DNA from: Bacteroidia bacterium
GTDB lineage: Bacteria; Bacteroidota; Bacteroidia; UKL13-3
Length of the DNA stretch: 64,000 bases
Reading direction: 5' to 3'
Assembly (NCBI GenBank): GCA_021740845.1
Contig: JAIOYZ010000007.1
Coordinates: 62,001-126,000, forward strand
Below the pieces are notes generated by a model. The model had not been told where the DNA came from and ran no database searches. It worked only from the letters and a program-made list of their open reading frames with translations. This document shows, in pieces, positions 937-35,298 of this stretch. Each line of letters begins with the position of its first letter. Position 1 is the first letter of the stretch. Position numbers and translations under genes: made by a program.

Positions 937-3900
937 ATGCACAGATTACTAAAAAGGCAAATAAAAAAGTTGTTTGGAGAAATTGTTCCCCAGGTTGCCG
1001 AAATTTCCCCATTATTAAATTTGGTTGATGAAAGTTATTATCAATTTCAGGAAGATTATAATAAATTAGAGAGAATTCTTGAATTAAGTTCTAAAGAATC
1101 ATTCAAAGAATTAAGCAATTTCAAAAACGCAATTGATACCGCATCCCTTGTTTCTTTAACGGATGCAAAGGCCACAATAATTATGGCCAACGAAAACTTT
1201 TGCAAAATATCTGGCTTTTCATTAGGAGAGTTAGTTGGGCAAAACCATAATATTATTAATAGCGAATACCACCCAAAATCATTTTGGAAAGAAGTATGGC
1301 AAACAATTGGATCTGGAAATATTTGGCAAGGTGAAATTTGTAACAAAACAAAAAGTGGTGAATTGTATTGGGTAGATTCAACCATTATTCCCTTTTTAGA
1401 TGATTTGGGTAAGCCATATCAATACCTTTCTATAAGGTTTGATATTACAAACCGCAAAAAAATTGAGGAGGAAATAAAAACACTAGCATTGGTTGCTCAA
1501 AAAACCCAAAATGCAGTAATTATAACAGATACCGCTGGTGTTGCAATTTGGGCAAATGAAGGTTTTGAGAGAATTACAGAATATTCGGTAAGCGATTTAA
1601 TAGGTAAAAAACCTGGTCAACTTTTACAAGGAAAAAATACTGACCCAGAAACTAAAGCACAAATTTCAATGGCTCTCAGGGAAGGCAAACCCTTTAGTGG
1701 GGAAATCTTAAACTATAGCAAAACAAAAAGACCCTATTGGATTTCATTATCTATTACCCCAATGATGGATAATGATAAACACATGGGATTTATTGCTATT
1801 GAAGGGGATATTTCGGAGAGGAAAAAAATTGAGTTTAAATTAAGAGAAAACGAAAAATTATTAAAGGCGATCAATGATGCTTCTGCCGAATTATTAGCTA
1901 ATACCAATTTTGAGAATTCGGTAAGTAAAGCAATAGAAATAATAGGAAAAGCATTCAAAGTAAATCGAGTTCATATATTTAAAAACAATTCTGATTTAAA
2001 TGGAATTCCACAATCATTTAGCCAAAGATTTGTTTGGTTAAATGATAATAATCAAATAATAATAGATAACCCTGAACTGCAAAACATACCTTATATCGAA
2101 ACGGGTATGGTAAGATGGAGAGATGAATTTACAGATAACAAAATAGTTAAAGGAGTAGTTTCAGACTTTCCTATAATTGAACAACCACGACTTTTACAAG
2201 ATGGTTTGGCCTCAATTATTGCATTGCCAGTTTTCCTATTTGATTCCTTTTGGGGATTTCTTGCTTTGGATTCAAAAGACGAAGACTCGGTTTGGAATGA
2301 AAACCATGAGCAAATGCTATTAAATGTTGTCAGGAATATTGCTTCTACATTTGAAAGAAATGATTCTGAATTAAGACTCAAAGAAAACGAGGAAAAATTT
2401 AGATTGTTGATTGAGTCTGCAACAGATATTTTTTATTATACCGATGGTTTTGGAAATTTTACTTATGTAAATGATATTTCCACACAAATAACAGGTTATT
2501 CCACTGAAGAACTACTTCGAATGAACTACTTGGATTTGGTTCAACCAGACAACAGAAATAGAGTAGAATCTTTTTATAAAAAACAATCCCTTTTAGGAAA
2601 CAAGGTTACTTATAATGAATTTCCAATTATCACTAAAAGCGGCAAAAAAGCCTGGATTGGACAAAATGTTCAACTGATCCAAAATGCTAACAATGTCAAC
2701 GGAATTCAAGCAATAGCAAGGGATATAACTACCCTTAAAAACGCTCAAATTGAAATTGAAAACTCTCATAATTTCTTAAATGAGATTATTGATTCCATTC
2801 CTAACCCTCTTTTTGTTAAAAACAGAAATCATGAATGGATTATGGTTAATAATGCCTACACCCAATTAACAGGGATTTCCAAAAAGAAAATTATAGGAAA
2901 AAAAGACAATGATTTCCTTACGGAGATAGAGGCAAACAAATTCATATTACAAGATGAGGAACAATTTAAAAACCAAAATGAAAGAGTAGACGAGGTTATC
3001 TACAAAAACGAAGAAGATAAGGAGAAAATCCTATTGGTAAAAAAATCTATTTACCAAAATCAAACAGACTTTTTTCTTATAGCACTTATCACAGATATCA
3101 CAGAAATTAAAGAAAGAGAAAAAGAAATTCTTCTATACAATAAAATTTCTGATCAAATAAGCGATGCCATTTCAGTAGCTGATTATGAAGGTAATTTAAT
3201 ATATGTAAATGAAGCTCACGCTAATAACCTACAAAAATCAAAAGAAAATTTAATTGGCAGTTCCATTGTTAATATGGAAAAATCTTTTCCAACTCTAGCT
3301 GACTGGCAAAAGCATTATAATGAAGTTAAGTATCAAGGAGAACAACTAATTGAAGGAGTTAATAAAAGAGCCAATGGAACTGAATTTCCTGTTGAAGCCA
3401 GCGTAAAATACGTAAACATTGAAAATAAAGGATATGTTGTAGCAGCTATTAGAGATATTACTGAACGAAAAAAATCTGAGGAAAAAATACGAGAAGGTGA
3501 AAACAGGTTTAAATCATTGGTACAAAATGCCACAGATATTACAACAGTTTTAGATATAAATGGGAATGTTACTTATGAAAGTCCTTCGTTTTATAGGGTT
3601 TTTGGATATGATGAGGAAGAGGTGGTTGGGAAATCCATTTTTAGCTTTATTCATCAAGATGATGTTGAAAGAGTTCAAATTGAATTTAAGAAAGGTGTAG
3701 TTAAGGGAGGAATATCAGACCCTGTAATCTTTAGGTTCAAAAGGAAAGATGGGAAAAATATTACCATTGAAACTATAGGAAATAACTTGCTAAATGAGCC
3801 AGGAATAAATGGAATTGTTGTAAACTCACGTGATATTTCAGAAAGGATTAAAGCTGAAGAAGAAGTTAGAAATCTGAAAGAATTTTACGAAAATGTTCTA

Positions 3901-5724
3901 AACAAAATTCCATCTGATGTTGTGGTATTTAATAAGGACCATAAATATTTATTTATAAATGAAATTGCTGTTAGAGACGTAGAGAAAAGGAAATGGTTAA
4001 TAGGTCATGATGATTATGAATATTGTGAACATTATAACAAAGACATTAAGCTAGCTGATGGAAGGAGAAACTTGTTTAATACGGTTCTAAACAATAAAAA
4101 GCAATTGGAGTTTGAGGAGAAAATAGTTAAAGCAGGTGAAAAACCAGTTTGGGTGTTAAGGAGATTTTATCCTGTTTTAGATAAAGAAGGCGAAATAAAC
4201 ACCGTGATAGGTTTTGGAATAGATATTACAACAAGAAAGGAAGCAGAAGATAAAATAAAGGAAAGCGAAGAAAGATTATCACTTGCCACATCCTCTGCAA
4301 ATTTGGGCATTTGGGATTGGAACCTAAAAGACAATTCCCTGATATGGGATTCTAGTATGTATAGGATTTTTGATGTAAATCCTAATGATTTTACTAGCGA
4401 CTATGATGCCTTTGAAAAAACACTACATGTTGAGGATAAAGAAAGAGTAAACCAAGAAATTAAGGACGCACTAGCAAACAATTATGATTTTAAAGGTCTA
4501 TTCAGAATTGTTAGTCATGATGGTAGTATCAAATACATTAGTGCAGTTTCAAAAACCTTTAGAGATTCTCAACAACAACCTATAAGAATGATAGGTGTAA
4601 ATTTTGATGTAACTGAAACGACTTTAATTCAGCACAAAATTTTAAAACAACAAAAAGATTTGGAAGAGGCTCAACATATTGCAAGAGTTGGGGGTTGGGA
4701 AATTGATGTTTTAGCAAGAACTATATTATGGTCGAAAGAAATGTTTAGTATTTGTGAAATAGCAGACGAAAAACAACCTTCCCTAAATGAAACATATGAT
4801 TTTTTTACCAGTGAGACAAGGGAATTGGTTATTCAATCCTTTTTCAATGCAATTGAAAAACACCAAGAATTTGAAATTGAATCTAAACTAAAGACTGGCA
4901 AAGGAAAAATAATAGACGTTAAAACCAAAGGAATTCCTTTTAGCCAAAATGGAAAAGTTGTTGCAATACGAGGAATTTTACAAGATATATCCCAAGAAAA
5001 AGAGGCAAGCAGGTTAATGGTTCAATACACCGAAGAGCTTGAAAAGAAAAATAAAGAACTAGATCAATTTGCATATGTTGTTTCCCACGATTTAAAAGCA
5101 CCACTCAGGGGAATAAATAATTTGAGTATGTGGATTGAAGAAGATATGGAAGGAAAGATCGAAATTGATACAAAAAACAATCTCGATTTAATGCGTAAGC
5201 GAGTTAAACGAATGGAAGGCTTAATTGATGGCATTTTGCAATATTCAAGAGCTGGCAGAATTAAACACGAATCTGTTACATTTAACTTAAAAGAGTCTAT
5301 TGAAGAGTTAATAACAAATATGTCTCCATCCGAAAACTTCAAAATTTCTATTCAAGAAGATTTGCCAACCCTAACAACAGAAAAAATAGCAATTGAGCAA
5401 GTATTTGCAAACTATATAAGCAATGCTATTAAATACAATTCCAATCCTGAACCAACAATTGCAGTTACTTGTAATAAAACAGAAAGCTTTTATGAGTTCT
5501 GTGTTGCAGATAATGGCCCAGGAATAGAAAAAGAGTTCTTCGAAAAAGTTTTCGTGATATTTCAAACCCTTCAAGCAAGAGATACTTTTGAAAGTACAGG
5601 AGTTGGTTTAGCTATCGTAAAAAAAATGGTTGAGGACAAAGGCGGAAAAGTTTGGATTGAATCTGAAATGGGAAAAGGCTCTAAGTTCTATTTCAGTTGG
5701 CCTATTATTGATACCCAAGAATAA
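937..5724 (+). CDS. Multi-PAS/GAF sensor histidine kinase, 1595 aa
   Basis: A very large sensor kinase without transmembrane segments, so probably cytoplasmic. I count nine PAS units, most ending in the typical D-I-(T/S)-x-(R/K) exit motif (DITNRKK, DISERKK, DITERKK, DISERIK, DITTRKE). They lie roughly at residues 64-175, 178-298, 480-600, 605-725, 730-850, 855-975, 980-1105, 1110-1235 and 1240-1360. A GAF-like domain lies at about 310-475, between PAS2 and PAS3. The C-terminus has a HisKA box, VVSHDLKAPLRG, with His1384 (5086-5088) as phospho-acceptor. The HATPase_c domain follows, with N-box NYISNAIKYN, G1 ADNGPGIE and G2 STGVGLAIV. There is no receiver domain, unlike the kinase just upstream, so it needs a partner in trans. 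The next gene starts inside its stop codon (TAATG), indicating one transcript. Several PAS units contain aromatic or charged pockets, but I cannot assign a ligand. Confidence 0.93.
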   Translation: MHRLLKRQIKKLFGEIVPQVAEISPLLNLVDESYYQFQEDYNKLERILELSSKESFKELSNFKNAIDTASLVSLTDAKATIIMANENFCKISGFSLGELVGQNHNIINSEYHPKSFWKEVWQTIGSGNIWQGEICNKTKSGELYWVDSTIIPFLDDLGKPYQYLSIRFDITNRKKIEEEIKTLALVAQKTQNAVIITDTAGVAIWANEGFERITEYSVSDLIGKKPGQLLQGKNTDPETKAQISMALREGKPFSGEILNYSKTKRPYWISLSITPMMDNDKHMGFIAIEGDISERKKIEFKLRENEKLLKAINDASAELLANTNFENSVSKAIEIIGKAFKVNRVHIFKNNSDLNGIPQSFSQRFVWLNDNNQIIIDNPELQNIPYIETGMVRWRDEFTDNKIVKGVVSDFPIIEQPRLLQDGLASIIALPVFLFDSFWGFLALDSKDEDSVWNENHEQMLLNVVRNIASTFERNDSELRLKENEEKFRLLIESATDIFYYTDGFGNFTYVNDISTQITGYSTEELLRMNYLDLVQPDNRNRVESFYKKQSLLGNKVTYNEFPIITKSGKKAWIGQNVQLIQNANNVNGIQAIARDITTLKNAQIEIENSHNFLNEIIDSIPNPLFVKNRNHEWIMVNNAYTQLTGISKKKIIGKKDNDFLTEIEANKFILQDEEQFKNQNERVDEVIYKNEEDKEKILLVKKSIYQNQTDFFLIALITDITEIKEREKEILLYNKISDQISDAISVADYEGNLIYVNEAHANNLQKSKENLIGSSIVNMEKSFPTLADWQKHYNEVKYQGEQLIEGVNKRANGTEFPVEASVKYVNIENKGYVVAAIRDITERKKSEEKIREGENRFKSLVQNATDITTVLDINGNVTYESPSFYRVFGYDEEEVVGKSIFSFIHQDDVERVQIEFKKGVVKGGISDPVIFRFKRKDGKNITIETIGNNLLNEPGINGIVVNSRDISERIKAEEEVRNLKEFYENVLNKIPSDVVVFNKDHKYLFINEIAVRDVEKRKWLIGHDDYEYCEHYNKDIKLADGRRNLFNTVLNNKKQLEFEEKIVKAGEKPVWVLRRFYPVLDKEGEINTVIGFGIDITTRKEAEDKIKESEERLSLATSSANLGIWDWNLKDNSLIWDSSMYRIFDVNPNDFTSDYDAFEKTLHVEDKERVNQEIKDALANNYDFKGLFRIVSHDGSIKYISAVSKTFRDSQQQPIRMIGVNFDVTETTLIQHKILKQQKDLEEAQHIARVGGWEIDVLARTILWSKEMFSICEIADEKQPSLNETYDFFTSETRELVIQSFFNAIEKHQEFEIESKLKTGKGKIIDVKTKGIPFSQNGKVVAIRGILQDISQEKEASRLMVQYTEELEKKNKELDQFAYVVSHDLKAPLRGINNLSMWIEEDMEGKIEIDTKNNLDLMRKRVKRMEGLIDGILQYSRAGRIKHESVTFNLKESIEELITNMSPSENFKISIQEDLPTLTTEKIAIEQVFANYISNAIKYNSNPEPTIAVTCNKTESFYEFCVADNGPGIEKEFFEKVFVIFQTLQARDTFESTGVGLAIVKKMVEDKGGKVWIESEMGKGSKFYFSWPIIDTQE

Positions 5725-31529: not shown

Positions 31530-33623
31530 TTACTTCACCACACTTCCAGGCTCAATATCTTGGTCAGGACCTACACTAAATAATTTTCCAAAGTCGTTTC
31601 CGGCCATCAATAACATTCCTTGGCTTTCAATTCCTCTAATTTTTCGAGGGGCTAAATTTGCCACCACAGTTACAAGTTTTCCAAGAAGTTCTTCTGGTTG
31701 ATAGTATTCTGCTATTCCACTTAAAATGGTTCTTTTTTCAAAACCTAAATCTACAGTTAACTTCAATAATTTATCTGCTTTCGGAACCTTTTCTGCTTCC
31801 ACAACTTTACCAACTCTCAAATCTAGTTTTTCAAAATCCTCATAATGAATATGTGGTTTAAGTTCTTGCAAACTTTGTGTTATTGGAGCTTGTTGACTAT
31901 TTGCCTTCTTTATTTCATCCAAACGAATTAATTGTTTGTTGATTTCTTCATCTTCAACCTGTTTGTATAAGATTTCTGCTTTGCCTAATTGGTGACCAAA
32001 ATTCAAAATGGTTTCTTCATTTAGTTGATTCCAATTTAAATTATTCAAATTTAACATGCTTGTTAATTTCCCGGCAGTATGAGGGAGAAATGGTTTAGAA
32101 GCAATGGCTAATTTGGCACAAATTTGAAGTGCATCGAATAGTATTTTCTTTACACTTTCTTCGTCTGTTTTAATTAATTTCCAAGGTTCGGTATCTGCAA
32201 GAAATTTATTACCCGCTCTTGCTACATTAATGAAATTAGACAATGCATCACGTAGTTTAATTACCTCCAAATTTTCATTCATTTCTTGAAGGTTCTTTTG
32301 CACTTGATCCGAACAAAGGGAACTTGCTGCTACTAATTTTTCATCGGTATAATTTCCACTAACAGAAGGAACTATACCGCCATAATACTTGTCGCACAAA
32401 ACCAAAACACGGTTCACAAAATTTCCAAAAATGCTTACCAACTCGCTATTTACCCTAGTTTGATAATCTTTCCAAGTAAATTCGCTATCCTTTGTTTCTG
32501 GGGCGATGCTAGTAAGTACATATCTTAATTCATCTTGCCTTTCTGGAAAATCAATTAAATATTCGTGAAGCCATACAGCCCAATTTCTACTAGTTGAAAT
32601 TTTATCGCCTTCTAGGTTCAAAAATTCATTTGCAGGCACATTACTAGGAAGTATATACTCGCCGTGAGTCATTAACATCATTGGAAAAATAATAGCATGA
32701 AAAACTATATTATCTTTACCAATAAAGTGAACCAAAGCGGTTTCATCATCTTGCCACCATTTGATCCAAGGACCTTCCACAGAATCCGAATTTCCTTTTT
32801 CAAAAAATTCTTTGGTCGCACTTATATATCCAATAGGCGCATCAAACCAAACATAGAGAACTTTGCCATCTGCGCCTTCAATAGGAACAGGAACACCCCA
32901 GTCTAAATCACGAGTCATTGCTCGGTTTTGAAGCCCTTCATTTAACCAACTATTGCATTGCCCTTTGATATTGGATTTCCAGTTTTCAAACCTTTTTATA
33001 TACTGCTGAAATTGTTCTGTTTGTTGAATTTCACCCATTGGCAAAAACCAGTTCTTGGTATCTTTTAAAACTGGAACATTTCCACTTAATGCAGATTTTG
33101 GATTTATTAAATCGGTTGGACTTAAAGCTGTGCCGCATTTCTCACATTGATCGCCATATGCATTAGGGTTGCCACAACGAGGACAAGTACCTGTGATGTA
33201 TCTATCAGCCAAGAATTGGTTTGCATCAACATCAAAATATTGTTGCGTAATTTCTTCTTTGAAAACACCTTTATCATAAAGGGTTTTAAAAAATTCTTGC
33301 GCAGTATCATGGTGAGTTTTAGAACTTGTTCTACCGTAATAACTAAAATCTATCCCAAATTCTTTGAAGGCATTTTTCATAATGCCATCGTATTTATCTA
33401 CCACCTGTTGTGGGGTAATTCCTTCCTTTTTTGCTTTAATGGTAATTGGTACTCCATGCTCATCGCTACCACAAATAAAAACAACATCTTTTCCTTTTTC
33501 TTTTAGAAAACGAACATAAATATCTGCTGGTAAATAACAACCTGCCAAATGACCAATATGTACTGGTCCATTTGCATAAGGCAATGCGGCAGTAACTAAA
33601 TATCTTTTAACTTCTTTGCTCAT
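31530..33623 (-). CDS. metG: Methionyl-tRNA synthetase with C-terminal tRNA-binding domain
   Basis: Charges tRNA-Met. 697 aa. Class I signatures: AALPYANGPVHIGHLAG (HIGH) and the KMSKS variant GDKISTSRNWAVW. The zinc-knuckle CPRCGNPNAYGDQCEKCG is of the four-cysteine type. An anticodon-binding helical region follows. The final ~110 residues form an EMAP-II/Arc1p-like tRNA-binding domain (FEKLDLRVGKVVEAEKVPKA, then ILSGIAEYY). The start ATG lies 11 bases after a minus-strand -7 box TACCTTTG (33634-33641), which runs directly into TGATAT, giving the TTTGTGATAT element shared with the next promoter. Confidence 0.98.
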   Translation of the reverse strand: MSKEVKRYLVTAALPYANGPVHIGHLAGCYLPADIYVRFLKEKGKDVVFICGSDEHGVPITIKAKKEGITPQQVVDKYDGIMKNAFKEFGIDFSYYGRTSSKTHHDTAQEFFKTLYDKGVFKEEITQQYFDVDANQFLADRYITGTCPRCGNPNAYGDQCEKCGTALSPTDLINPKSALSGNVPVLKDTKNWFLPMGEIQQTEQFQQYIKRFENWKSNIKGQCNSWLNEGLQNRAMTRDLDWGVPVPIEGADGKVLYVWFDAPIGYISATKEFFEKGNSDSVEGPWIKWWQDDETALVHFIGKDNIVFHAIIFPMMLMTHGEYILPSNVPANEFLNLEGDKISTSRNWAVWLHEYLIDFPERQDELRYVLTSIAPETKDSEFTWKDYQTRVNSELVSIFGNFVNRVLVLCDKYYGGIVPSVSGNYTDEKLVAASSLCSDQVQKNLQEMNENLEVIKLRDALSNFINVARAGNKFLADTEPWKLIKTDEESVKKILFDALQICAKLAIASKPFLPHTAGKLTSMLNLNNLNWNQLNEETILNFGHQLGKAEILYKQVEDEEINKQLIRLDEIKKANSQQAPITQSLQELKPHIHYEDFEKLDLRVGKVVEAEKVPKADKLLKLTVDLGFEKRTILSGIAEYYQPEELLGKLVTVVANLAPRKIRGIESQGMLLMAGNDFGKLFSVGPDQDIEPGSVVK

Positions 33624-33627
33624 AAAT

Positions 33628-33637
33628 ATATCACAAA
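33628..33637 (-). promoter_or_regulatory. TTTGTGATAT element at the metG promoter
   Basis: Minus-strand TTTGTGATAT overlapping the metG -7 box (TACCTTTG, 33634-33641). It is identical to both arms of the inverted repeat at 33742-33768. Confidence 0.5.
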
Positions 33638-33712
33638 GGTAAGTTTACAATTGTGGTTTTGCATATTGAAATTATTTTTAGGATTTTGAAAACAAACAAA
33701 CAAAAGAAAAAA

Positions 33713-33745
33713 TTTGGATTTGAATATATTTTTTAAATATCTTTG
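33713..33745 (+). promoter_or_regulatory. Promoter of the SPFH operon
   Basis: -33 TTTG at 33713-33716 and -7 TATCTTTG at 33738-33745, with a 21-base spacer. The leader is about 19 bases. Confidence 0.6.
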
Positions 33746-33768
33746 TGATATCATTTTAATATCACAAA
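33742..33768 (+). promoter_or_regulatory. Perfect inverted repeat over the SPFH operon start (putative operator)
   Basis: TTTGTGATAT - CATTTTA - ATATCACAAA: 10-bp perfect arms and a 7-base spacer. It overlaps the end of the -7 box and the predicted transcription start and ends two bases before the ATG at 33771. There is no T-run, so it is not a terminator. A repressor site is the simplest reading, and the operon's own ribbon-helix-helix product is a candidate ligand. Confidence 0.6.
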
Positions 33769-33770
33769 AC

Positions 33771-34625
33771 ATGAAACAAGAAAAAGACATTCTACCAAAA
33801 TCTGGCTTTTTAATTCTAGGATTAAACCTCCTTTTAGTTGGCTCTTCAATAGCGCTAATTGTATCTGGAATGATAGTTCCAGCAATCTTATTAATAGTTC
33901 TTTTTTTCTTCATCCTTCCCGGCTTTTTTATAAATAACCCAAACGAATCAACGGTTCTGGTTTTGTTTGGTGAATACAAGGGTTCTGCAAAAGGCAATGG
34001 TTTCTTTTGGGCAAACCCATTTATGACCAAAGCCAAGTTCTCGCTTAGGGCTAGAAATTTAGATAGCCAACCAATTAAAGTAAATGATAAAATGGGCAAT
34101 CCAATAATGATTGGAATTGTATTGGTCTGGAGGGTTTCTGATACATTTAAAGCCGCATTTGAGGTGAATAATTACGAGGCATTTGTAAAAATTCAAAGTG
34201 AAGCTGCGATTAGAAAATTAGCGGGAACATACCCATATGATAACTTTGATGATGAACAAGAAGAAATCTCTTTGCGCTCAGGAAATAATGAGGTTCACGA
34301 GGAATTAATGAGAGAATTAACGGAGCGTTTATCCATTGCTGGAATAGAAGTAATGGAAGCTCGAATTAGCAATTTGGCCTATTCTCAAGAAATAGCGGGA
34401 GCAATGTTGCAACGCCAACAAGCAACTGCAATTGTAGCTGCTAGAACAAAAATTGTTGAAGGCGCTGTTGGTATGGTTGAATTGGCATTAAATGCCCTTT
34501 CACAAAAAAACATAATTGAGTTAGACGACGATAAAAAGGCAGCAATGGTAAGTAATTTAATGGTTGTACTTTGTAGTGATAAATCAGCAAATCCTGTTAT
34601 TAATACTGGCACTTTAAACCAATAA
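33771..34625 (+). CDS. SPFH/Band 7 domain membrane protein
   Basis: 284 aa from ATG 33771; the frame extends upstream but through the promoter. Two adjacent hydrophobic helices (about residues 10-55) are followed by an SPFH domain: NESTVLVLFGEYKGSAKGNGFFW, then VWRVSDTFKAAFEVNNYEAFV, and a helical segment SNLAYSQEIAGAMLQRQQATAIVAARTKIVEGA. SPFH proteins form large membrane-bound oligomers that organise membrane microdomains or protease partners. It heads a three-gene cassette with a small membrane protein and a ribbon-helix-helix protein, spaced by 2 and 5 bp. Confidence 0.9.
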   Translation: MKQEKDILPKSGFLILGLNLLLVGSSIALIVSGMIVPAILLIVLFFFILPGFFINNPNESTVLVLFGEYKGSAKGNGFFWANPFMTKAKFSLRARNLDSQPIKVNDKMGNPIMIGIVLVWRVSDTFKAAFEVNNYEAFVKIQSEAAIRKLAGTYPYDNFDDEQEEISLRSGNNEVHEELMRELTERLSIAGIEVMEARISNLAYSQEIAGAMLQRQQATAIVAARTKIVEGAVGMVELALNALSQKNIIELDDDKKAAMVSNLMVVLCSDKSANPVINTGTLNQ

Positions 34626-34627
34626 AA

Positions 34628-35125
34628 ATGAGCGATAACTATTACGAAATTCAAAAGTTCAACAAGTGGTGGATGAAACTATTACTTGCTTTACCAATCC
34701 TGCTTTTTATTTTCGGCGTTGTTTTGGGAAAAACAAATAGTCCAGAAGGTACTTCAATGCTAATTGCTACCGTGGTTGTAGTTTTTATTATTGTGCTGTT
34801 TTATTTTACCAAACTTGAAACAAGGGTGGATGAAACGGGCATAACGATTAGATTTTTTCCATTTCAAAGAGTTTATTACTATGTGCGCTGGGATGAAATT
34901 GAATCCGCTACAATTAGAAGTTATAACCCATTAATGGAATTTGGGGGCTGGGGCTTAAGATATAGCTTAAAAAACGGAAAAGCATTTAATGTTTCTGGAA
35001 CGTTTGGCTTGCAATTGGTTTTAAAAAGCGGAAAGAAATTTTTAATTGGCACCCAAAAACAAACCGATTTAAATAATTATTTAATCAATTTGAAAAAGGA
35101 ATTTCAAATTAGCTGCATCCAGTAA
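34628..35125 (+). CDS. Two-helix membrane protein with PH-like domain, 165 aa
   Basis: Two transmembrane helices (about 15-35 and 43-62) precede a ~100-residue beta-rich domain: ETRVDETGITIRFFPF, YVRWDEIESATIRSYNP, GLRYSLKNGKAFNVSG, and KKFLIGTQKQTDLNNYL. That is the layout of bacterial PH-like (bPH) membrane proteins. No catalytic residues are evident. Its place between the SPFH gene and the ribbon-helix-helix gene suggests it works with the SPFH protein. Specific family not recognised. Confidence 0.75.
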   Translation: MSDNYYEIQKFNKWWMKLLLALPILLFIFGVVLGKTNSPEGTSMLIATVVVVFIIVLFYFTKLETRVDETGITIRFFPFQRVYYYVRWDEIESATIRSYNPLMEFGGWGLRYSLKNGKAFNVSGTFGLQLVLKSGKKFLIGTQKQTDLNNYLINLKKEFQISCIQ

Positions 35126-35130
35126 ACAAC

Positions 35131-35298
35131 ATGGCCGACAAGGAAAAGAAACCTTTTGCTTTGCGACTGTCAAAGGAAACAATGGAAGCTATTGAAAAGT
35201 GGGCTTCAGATGAGTTTAGAAGCACGCATGGTCAATTGGAGTGGATCATTAATAAGGCCTTAAAAGATTCGGGTCGAACCAAAAAGAAGGAAAATTAA
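35131..35298 (+). CDS. Small ribbon-helix-helix (Arc-type) DNA-binding protein, 55 aa
   Basis: Too short for usual ORF cut-offs. The strand segment KKPFALRLSKETMEAIEKW matches the Arc/MetJ-type beta strand plus helix A. DEFRSTHGQLEWIINKALKD supplies the turn and helix B. A Lys-rich tail (GRTKKKEN) ends it. RHH proteins bind DNA as dimers through the paired strands. It starts 5 bp after the PH-like gene and its stop overlaps the convergent flavoprotein gene by 4 bp. Autoregulation through the inverted repeat at 33742-33768 is plausible but unproven. Confidence 0.85.
   Translation: MADKEKKPFALRLSKETMEAIEKWASDEFRSTHGQLEWIINKALKDSGRTKKKEN

Follow-up and report, generated by a model that had tools for sequence, protein, structure and literature searches.

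Autorepression by a ribbon-helix-helix (RHH) protein is known from RelB, which acts at relO, the operator of the relBE operon of Escherichia coli; according to the available text of PMC2812701, relO consists of 6-bp hexads in adjacent 12-bp half-sites, and the toxin serves as co-repressor. The SPFH operon described here resembles relBE in that a small RHH protein is encoded in the very operon that is repressed, an arrangement known for relBE (PMC2812701) and predicted here. Unlike relO, the SPFH operon has 8-bp palindromes every 11 bp, an SPFH membrane protein as the partner and no toxin that could be seen. The kind of circuit is a familiar one, as far as the RelB-relO account goes (PMC2812701, available text); for its location in an SPFH operon we found no description in the open-access literature.

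The Arc repressor of phage P22 provides the closest solved relatives of the RHH profile used here. The F-x-L-R strand aligns, and the likeness is weak: among the PDB matches, which are Arc repressor chains, the best is a double-Arc construct (E 4.1e-5), Arc itself follows at E 0.0081, and a further match, 9pio_G ('Arc family DNA-binding protein'), reaches E 0.012. Arc is a phage repressor with another operator sequence, and its dimers sit on adjacent half-sites, as would those of the RHH protein here.

Prokaryotic SPFH proteins have been divided into 12 subfamilies, with conserved NfeD operon partners, in the available text of PMC2636767. The operon studied here likewise has conserved partners, but these are the RHH protein and often a DUF6141-type protein. 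The terms 'ribbon', 'DNA-binding' and 'repressor' and the whole word 'arc' are absent from the main text of PMC2636767. One paper that contains both 'SPFH' and 'ribbon-helix-helix' (PMC8656257) has the second term in its reference list only, and the available text of a 2026 study of nine Pseudomonas aeruginosa SPFH proteins (PMC13086221) contains none of 'ribbon', 'Arc family', 'DNA-binding' and 'HicB'. Among the matches listed in a search of the open-access literature for the octamer described below, all look unrelated by title, and a search of the same literature returned no description of how this SPFH operon is controlled. A predicted regulator, operator and promoter geometry are now available for what is a widespread SPFH operon.

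Operon genes and the RHH protein

The features of the locus are collected in Table 1, with positions numbered along the window, by which we mean the whole 64-kb stretch of DNA that was analysed.

Table 1. Features of the metG/SPFH intergenic region and of the SPFH operon (window positions).
Feature	Position	Strand	Basis or remark
metG -7 box TACCTTTG followed by a single TGATATAT; third 10-mer copy	33628..33641	-	not conserved
Weak third operator octamer AAATATCT (predicted)	33735..33742	+	overlaps the -7 box
Bacteroidota-type -7 box TATCTTTG of the SPFH operon	33738..33745	+	sequence; predicted start ~33750
Inverted repeat of the earlier note, TTTGTGATAT-N7-ATATCACAAA	33742..33768	.	conserved portion is the inner TGATAT...ATATCA only
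Central operator octamer TGATATCA (predicted)	33746..33753	+	tandem in 155/157 RHH-containing loci; position profile
Second operator octamer TAATATCA (predicted), 11 bp downstream of the central one	33757..33764	+	same tandem comparison
SPFH / Band_7 domain membrane protein, 284 aa, first gene	33771..34625	+	Pfam PF01145 E 3.5e-23; orthologs
DUF6141-type protein, 165 aa, second gene	34628..35125	+	Pfam PF19638 E 2.9e-7
Arc-like RHH protein, 55 aa, predicted autorepressor	35131..35298	+	Arc profile matches

The DUF6141-type gene is not present in every cassette, since the RHH gene directly follows the SPFH gene in four loci (L014, L015, L023 and L024). At another locus (L019, 2373-3421), two tandem open reading frames between SPFH and RHH resemble, by eye, the second gene of the window. 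Searches of Pfam and NCBIfam at E 0.001 assigned the operon genes to SPFH and DUF6141 families and gave no toxin match; a type II toxin-antitoxin system, which calls for a toxin gene beside the RHH antitoxin, was accordingly set aside.

The window's own genome contains one match to the RHH profile, the only copy found. The Pfam Arc model matches 13 of 14 members of the RHH family (E up to 1; best 4e-6), and the window protein taken alone falls below the Pfam cut-off, with 14.6 of 20.4 bits. The strand mostly reads F-[VA]-L-R, and its arginine is aligned with Arc R13, a residue with a DNA-contact role, in 156/156 sequences. Judged by profile match and strand residues, the 55-aa protein family is thus a predicted member of the Arc-like RHH DNA-binding proteins. 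An AlphaFold model of the monomer was poor (pLDDT 72), with one long helix and no strand, and does not show the RHH fold.

The tandem octamer array and its promoter

An earlier note on this DNA had singled out a 10-mer, TTTGTGATAT, and an exact search confirms its three copies in the window, at 33628-33637 (-), 33742-33751 (+) and 33759-33768 (-); shuffled windows contain 0.43 copies on average, and three or more in 1 of 100 shuffles. The latter two copies can be read directly as perfect 10-bp inverted arms around a 7-bp spacer, just 5' of the SPFH start at 33771, and the remaining copy overlaps the metG -7 box. That the TTTG part of the 10-mer is the -7 box also holds. Over the genome as a whole there is no enrichment of the 10-mer, with 15 matches versus 14 for the reversed control.

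A search with the SPFH protein (E 0.001) gave matches in 20 of 60 genomes, the window's own included. Besides the window's own protein, 17 of these are orthologs with 56-86% identity, the remaining matches being weak paralogs. Counting the window's own, 13 of the 18 orthologs have the 5' arm TTTGTGATAT within 80 bp upstream; the complete 3' arm ATATCACAAA appears there in just one, the window itself. What the 18 upstream regions have in common is TATCTTTG or a similar sequence, followed by TGATATCA, three bases and TRATATCA. The conserved array is an octamer at an 11-bp period, TGATATCA-N3-TGATATCA, often with a third copy. An exact TRATATCA-N3-TRATATCA lies within 80 bp upstream of 16/18 orthologs, the window's own among them, and the other two (L023 and L025) have one changed base in the tandem site. 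In the window, the weak third octamer was scored as AAATATCTTTGTGATATCA, with two mismatches, where relatives show TGATATCT or similar. The inverted repeat of the earlier note is thus present in the window, but as conserved anatomy it gives way to tandem 8-bp palindromes with an 11-bp period. By this comparison the 10-mer is not the functional or conserved unit, and the unit, the number of sites and the link to metG were misread. A CRP- or FNR-like palindrome was also considered: the window has TGTGA and TCACA at a distance of 13 bp, but the outer CACA is not conserved.

The array is placed on the promoter. The Bacteroidota box TAnnTTTG is located at -12 to -5 in the available texts of PMC9723704 and PMC6847099; with the box of the window at 33738-33745, transcription is predicted to start at about 33750, so that the array would extend from about -15 to +15. 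The array at 33735-33764 covers both the -7 box and the predicted start site. A box with at least 5/6 bases is found at this offset in 86/154 aligned loci, compared with 58/154 for a box anywhere within an equally long, randomly chosen upstream window. When octamer match is plotted against offset, peaks appear at 0 and +11, with smaller ones at -11 (4.32) and +22 (3.31) over a background of 2.31 (sd 0.18), the -11 peak being partly forced by the -7 box in this class.

In 25 loci of other classes or phyla, three octamers at 11-bp steps match at a median of 20/24 positions, versus 12 in control windows; this comparison left out L253, which repeats L252, and two loci below the array threshold (L218 and L220). 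A TTGACA-like box (at least 5/6) begins 20 bp before the middle octamer in seven of the 25; in 11 it has another offset, and seven lack it. Direct reading of the seven with the box at 20 bp places the -10 hexamer inside the middle octamer. In Acetoanaerobium, a promoter-like TTGACA-16-TATCAT overlaps the array; the same promoter scan returned nothing in Qipengyuania (L216) or Deinococcus (L211).

Array and RHH gene across loci and genomes

Arrays were scored as the number of matching positions out of 16, with a threshold of 13/16; both consensus and threshold were fixed after the first 18 regions had been seen, and the same loci supplied the sequences for the RHH profile. In the class sample, 77/80 SPFH loci reach 13/16, and the three that fall under it (L100, L116 and L126) are also without an RHH gene. 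The sample was enlarged to 179 loci by adding to these 80 a further 80 Bacteroidota-titled loci (the best 80 of at least 580 relatives) and 19 from plasmid or phage records. Non-redundant loci with a readable upstream region numbered 172, after four with the upstream cut off (L150, L155, L209 and L225) and three duplicates (L157, L163 and L206) had been left out.

The earlier note had made its reading depend on the palindrome being found upstream of orthologous cassettes, and the array is there: 155/157 non-redundant loci with a profile-detected RHH gene score at least 13/16, as do 0/12 SPFH loci without one (at least 1.9 kb readable downstream), although these locus counts are not phylogenetically independent. 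The upstream region of one RHH-less locus, L227, is nearly identical to that of L223, which reduces the 12 to about 11 independent records. Another of the 12, L185, scores 12, just below threshold. Three loci whose contig ends before any RHH gene could show (L011, L146 and L194) were counted in neither group, and each scores 15; at L011 the element is present, no RHH gene is visible and the contig ends 125 bases past the SPFH match. Control windows drawn from 173 loci reach 13/16 in 5 of 3929 cases. An SPFH tree of 168 rows gave four independent contrasts with support; on average, presence of the operator goes with that of the RHH gene in 3.9 of these (sign test, p 0.125), which is consistent with co-occurrence and too few for significance alone.

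The nearly identical DNA upstream of the SPFH gene in the L227/L223 pair comes from the P. aeruginosa plasmid pHN232-2 and an 'Enterococcus phage' contig, which suggests contamination or misassignment in at least one of the two records.

A phylum-wide search matched 39/198 genomes, 13 of them already counted, and yielded 26 further loci (L253 repeating L252), 21 from other classes. All 26 reach 13/16, compared with 0/439 control windows; the RHH gene was seen at once in 25 and farther downstream in L245. Outside Bacteroidota, 5/7 RHH-containing loci reach the threshold, with scores of 14 in Nonomuraea, 13 in each of two Deinococcus loci, 15 in Qipengyuania and 16 in Acetoanaerobium, so that the array is also present in Actinomycetota, Deinococcota, Alphaproteobacteria and Bacillota; among RHH-less loci outside Bacteroidota, 0/8 reach 13/16. 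The two RHH-containing loci that miss the threshold are those of Rhizobium (L218, 10/16) and Bosea (L220, 12/16). In the Rhizobium locus (1767-1810), two octamer-like sites are seen by eye 25 bp apart instead of 11, possibly a spacing variant. For an operator to vary so little between Bacteroidota and Bacillota, Deinococcota, Actinomycetota or Alphaproteobacteria, and to do so with two promoter types, is unusual in our judgement.

Across 247 genomes of the class, we searched for exact matches to the pattern TRATATCANNNTRATATCA. It matches 48 rows, or 43 places in 41 genomes, and every one of the 43 falls at an SPFH gene, from 126 bp before its estimated start to 2 bp past it; the reversed-control pattern has one match in the same genomes. 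An SPFH gene was found in 70/247 genomes, and the 177 without one contain no exact match. Arrays in the 29 SPFH-positive genomes without an exact match are mostly degenerate, of those read, and absent in three. In the window's own genome the sole exact tandem match is 33746-33764; the next best, C51:19398, has one mismatch, coincides with the end of a coding frame and was taken as chance.

The RHH profile matches 68/247 genomes, once in each, and 67 of these are also SPFH-positive. Three genomes have SPFH without RHH (G170, G173 and G264) and one has RHH without SPFH (G174). Four genomes with an operator-less SPFH gene have no RHH match anywhere: at E 0.001, whole-genome profile searches gave none in G170, G173 and G264, where the window's own genome matched as positive control, and none in the genome of L185, a search run without a positive control. 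Beside the orphan RHH gene of G174 (L271, ~3881-4311), which has no SPFH gene at threshold, an operator-like site scoring 13/16 lies ~190 bp upstream; this is suggestive only.

Predicted autorepression and alternative readings

On the comparative evidence, 33735-33764 is very probably the operator of the SPFH-DUF6141-RHH operon, repressed by the operon's own RHH protein. Dimers of the 55-aa Arc-like protein would bind the 8-bp palindromes TGATATCA; since these are 11 bp apart, the dimers would share one face of the helix and could cooperate. We infer repression as the sign of regulation because protein bound to an array that spans the -7 box and the predicted start would keep RNA polymerase off the promoter, and the operon would repress itself. 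An operator on the operon's own promoter, conserved together with the regulator gene apart from L218 and L220, is the arrangement expected of an autoregulated RHH operon. Autoregulation by the 55-aa protein, as proposed in the earlier note, is in this way strongly supported as a prediction by the locus comparison (155/157 versus 0/12).

As to an inducing signal, it is conceivable, if rather doubtful, that the SPFH membrane assembly acts as the sensor: the RHH protein would be free at rest and captured by the SPFH cage under membrane stress, upon which the operon would open. Such a loop would work like PspA and PspF. If true, this would be a membrane-state feedback loop within one operon, its operator nearly unchanged across several phyla. 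Control of the operon is easy to test, and offers a route to asking to which signal the SPFH protein responds.

The array might instead be the target of a different, trans-encoded regulator, such as a membrane-stress factor, with the RHH protein serving another function. The Rhizobium and Bosea loci, which keep the RHH gene with a weak or altered array, would fit such a regulator. However, loci that lack the RHH gene lack the array as well, including those of the four genomes without any RHH match, and the exact pattern occurs at one locus per genome, fewer than one would expect for a general regulator. We regard this reading as unlikely.

Cross-control of metG by the RHH protein through the 33628-33637 copy, also raised in the earlier note, is not supported and highly unlikely. 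In its favour, an exact 10-mer overlaps the metG -7 box, and the divergent metG/SPFH layout (window 31530-33770) is kept, judged from coordinates by eye, in 7/18 genomes of the genus with metG. Against it, among 19 metG copies in 18 genomes of the genus the 10-mer lies within 60 bp upstream in the window's copy only (0/18 of the others), and no shared element was found at metG among the genomes with the divergent layout. At metG, moreover, one half-site stands alone, with no second copy in tandem; genome-wide the 10-mer shows no enrichment, and in the 247 genomes the exact tandem occurs only at SPFH starts. Most likely, the metG copy is a chance fusion of its -7 box with TGATAT, the TTTG of the box explaining the match well.

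That the inverted repeat folds over the start codon as an RNA hairpin or translational element of the 5' leader is extremely improbable. An inverted repeat does lie near the ATG in many Bacteroidota loci, and Acetoanaerobium has a 16-pair stem there. Yet the leader at 33750-33800 hardly folds (-0.2 kcal/mol, z 0.72), and with a start predicted at 33750 most of the first arm would be untranscribed. The Acetoanaerobium array itself ends ~140 bp before the first listed start codon, an argument that is not general, as the gap from array to annotated start is just 26 to 49 bp in L211, L212 and L216.

Chance likeness arising from common promoter boxes, which accounts well for the metG copy given that TTTG is the -7 box, has next to no probability for the SPFH array, which is conserved across classes and phyla with different promoter types and is rarely matched at threshold in control windows. 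Predicted autorepression by the RHH protein stands as the preferred reading. At one SPFH promoter (L107, G097:C44:88864-88904), four TAATATCA octamers are arranged head to tail in 11-bp steps, an expanded operator.
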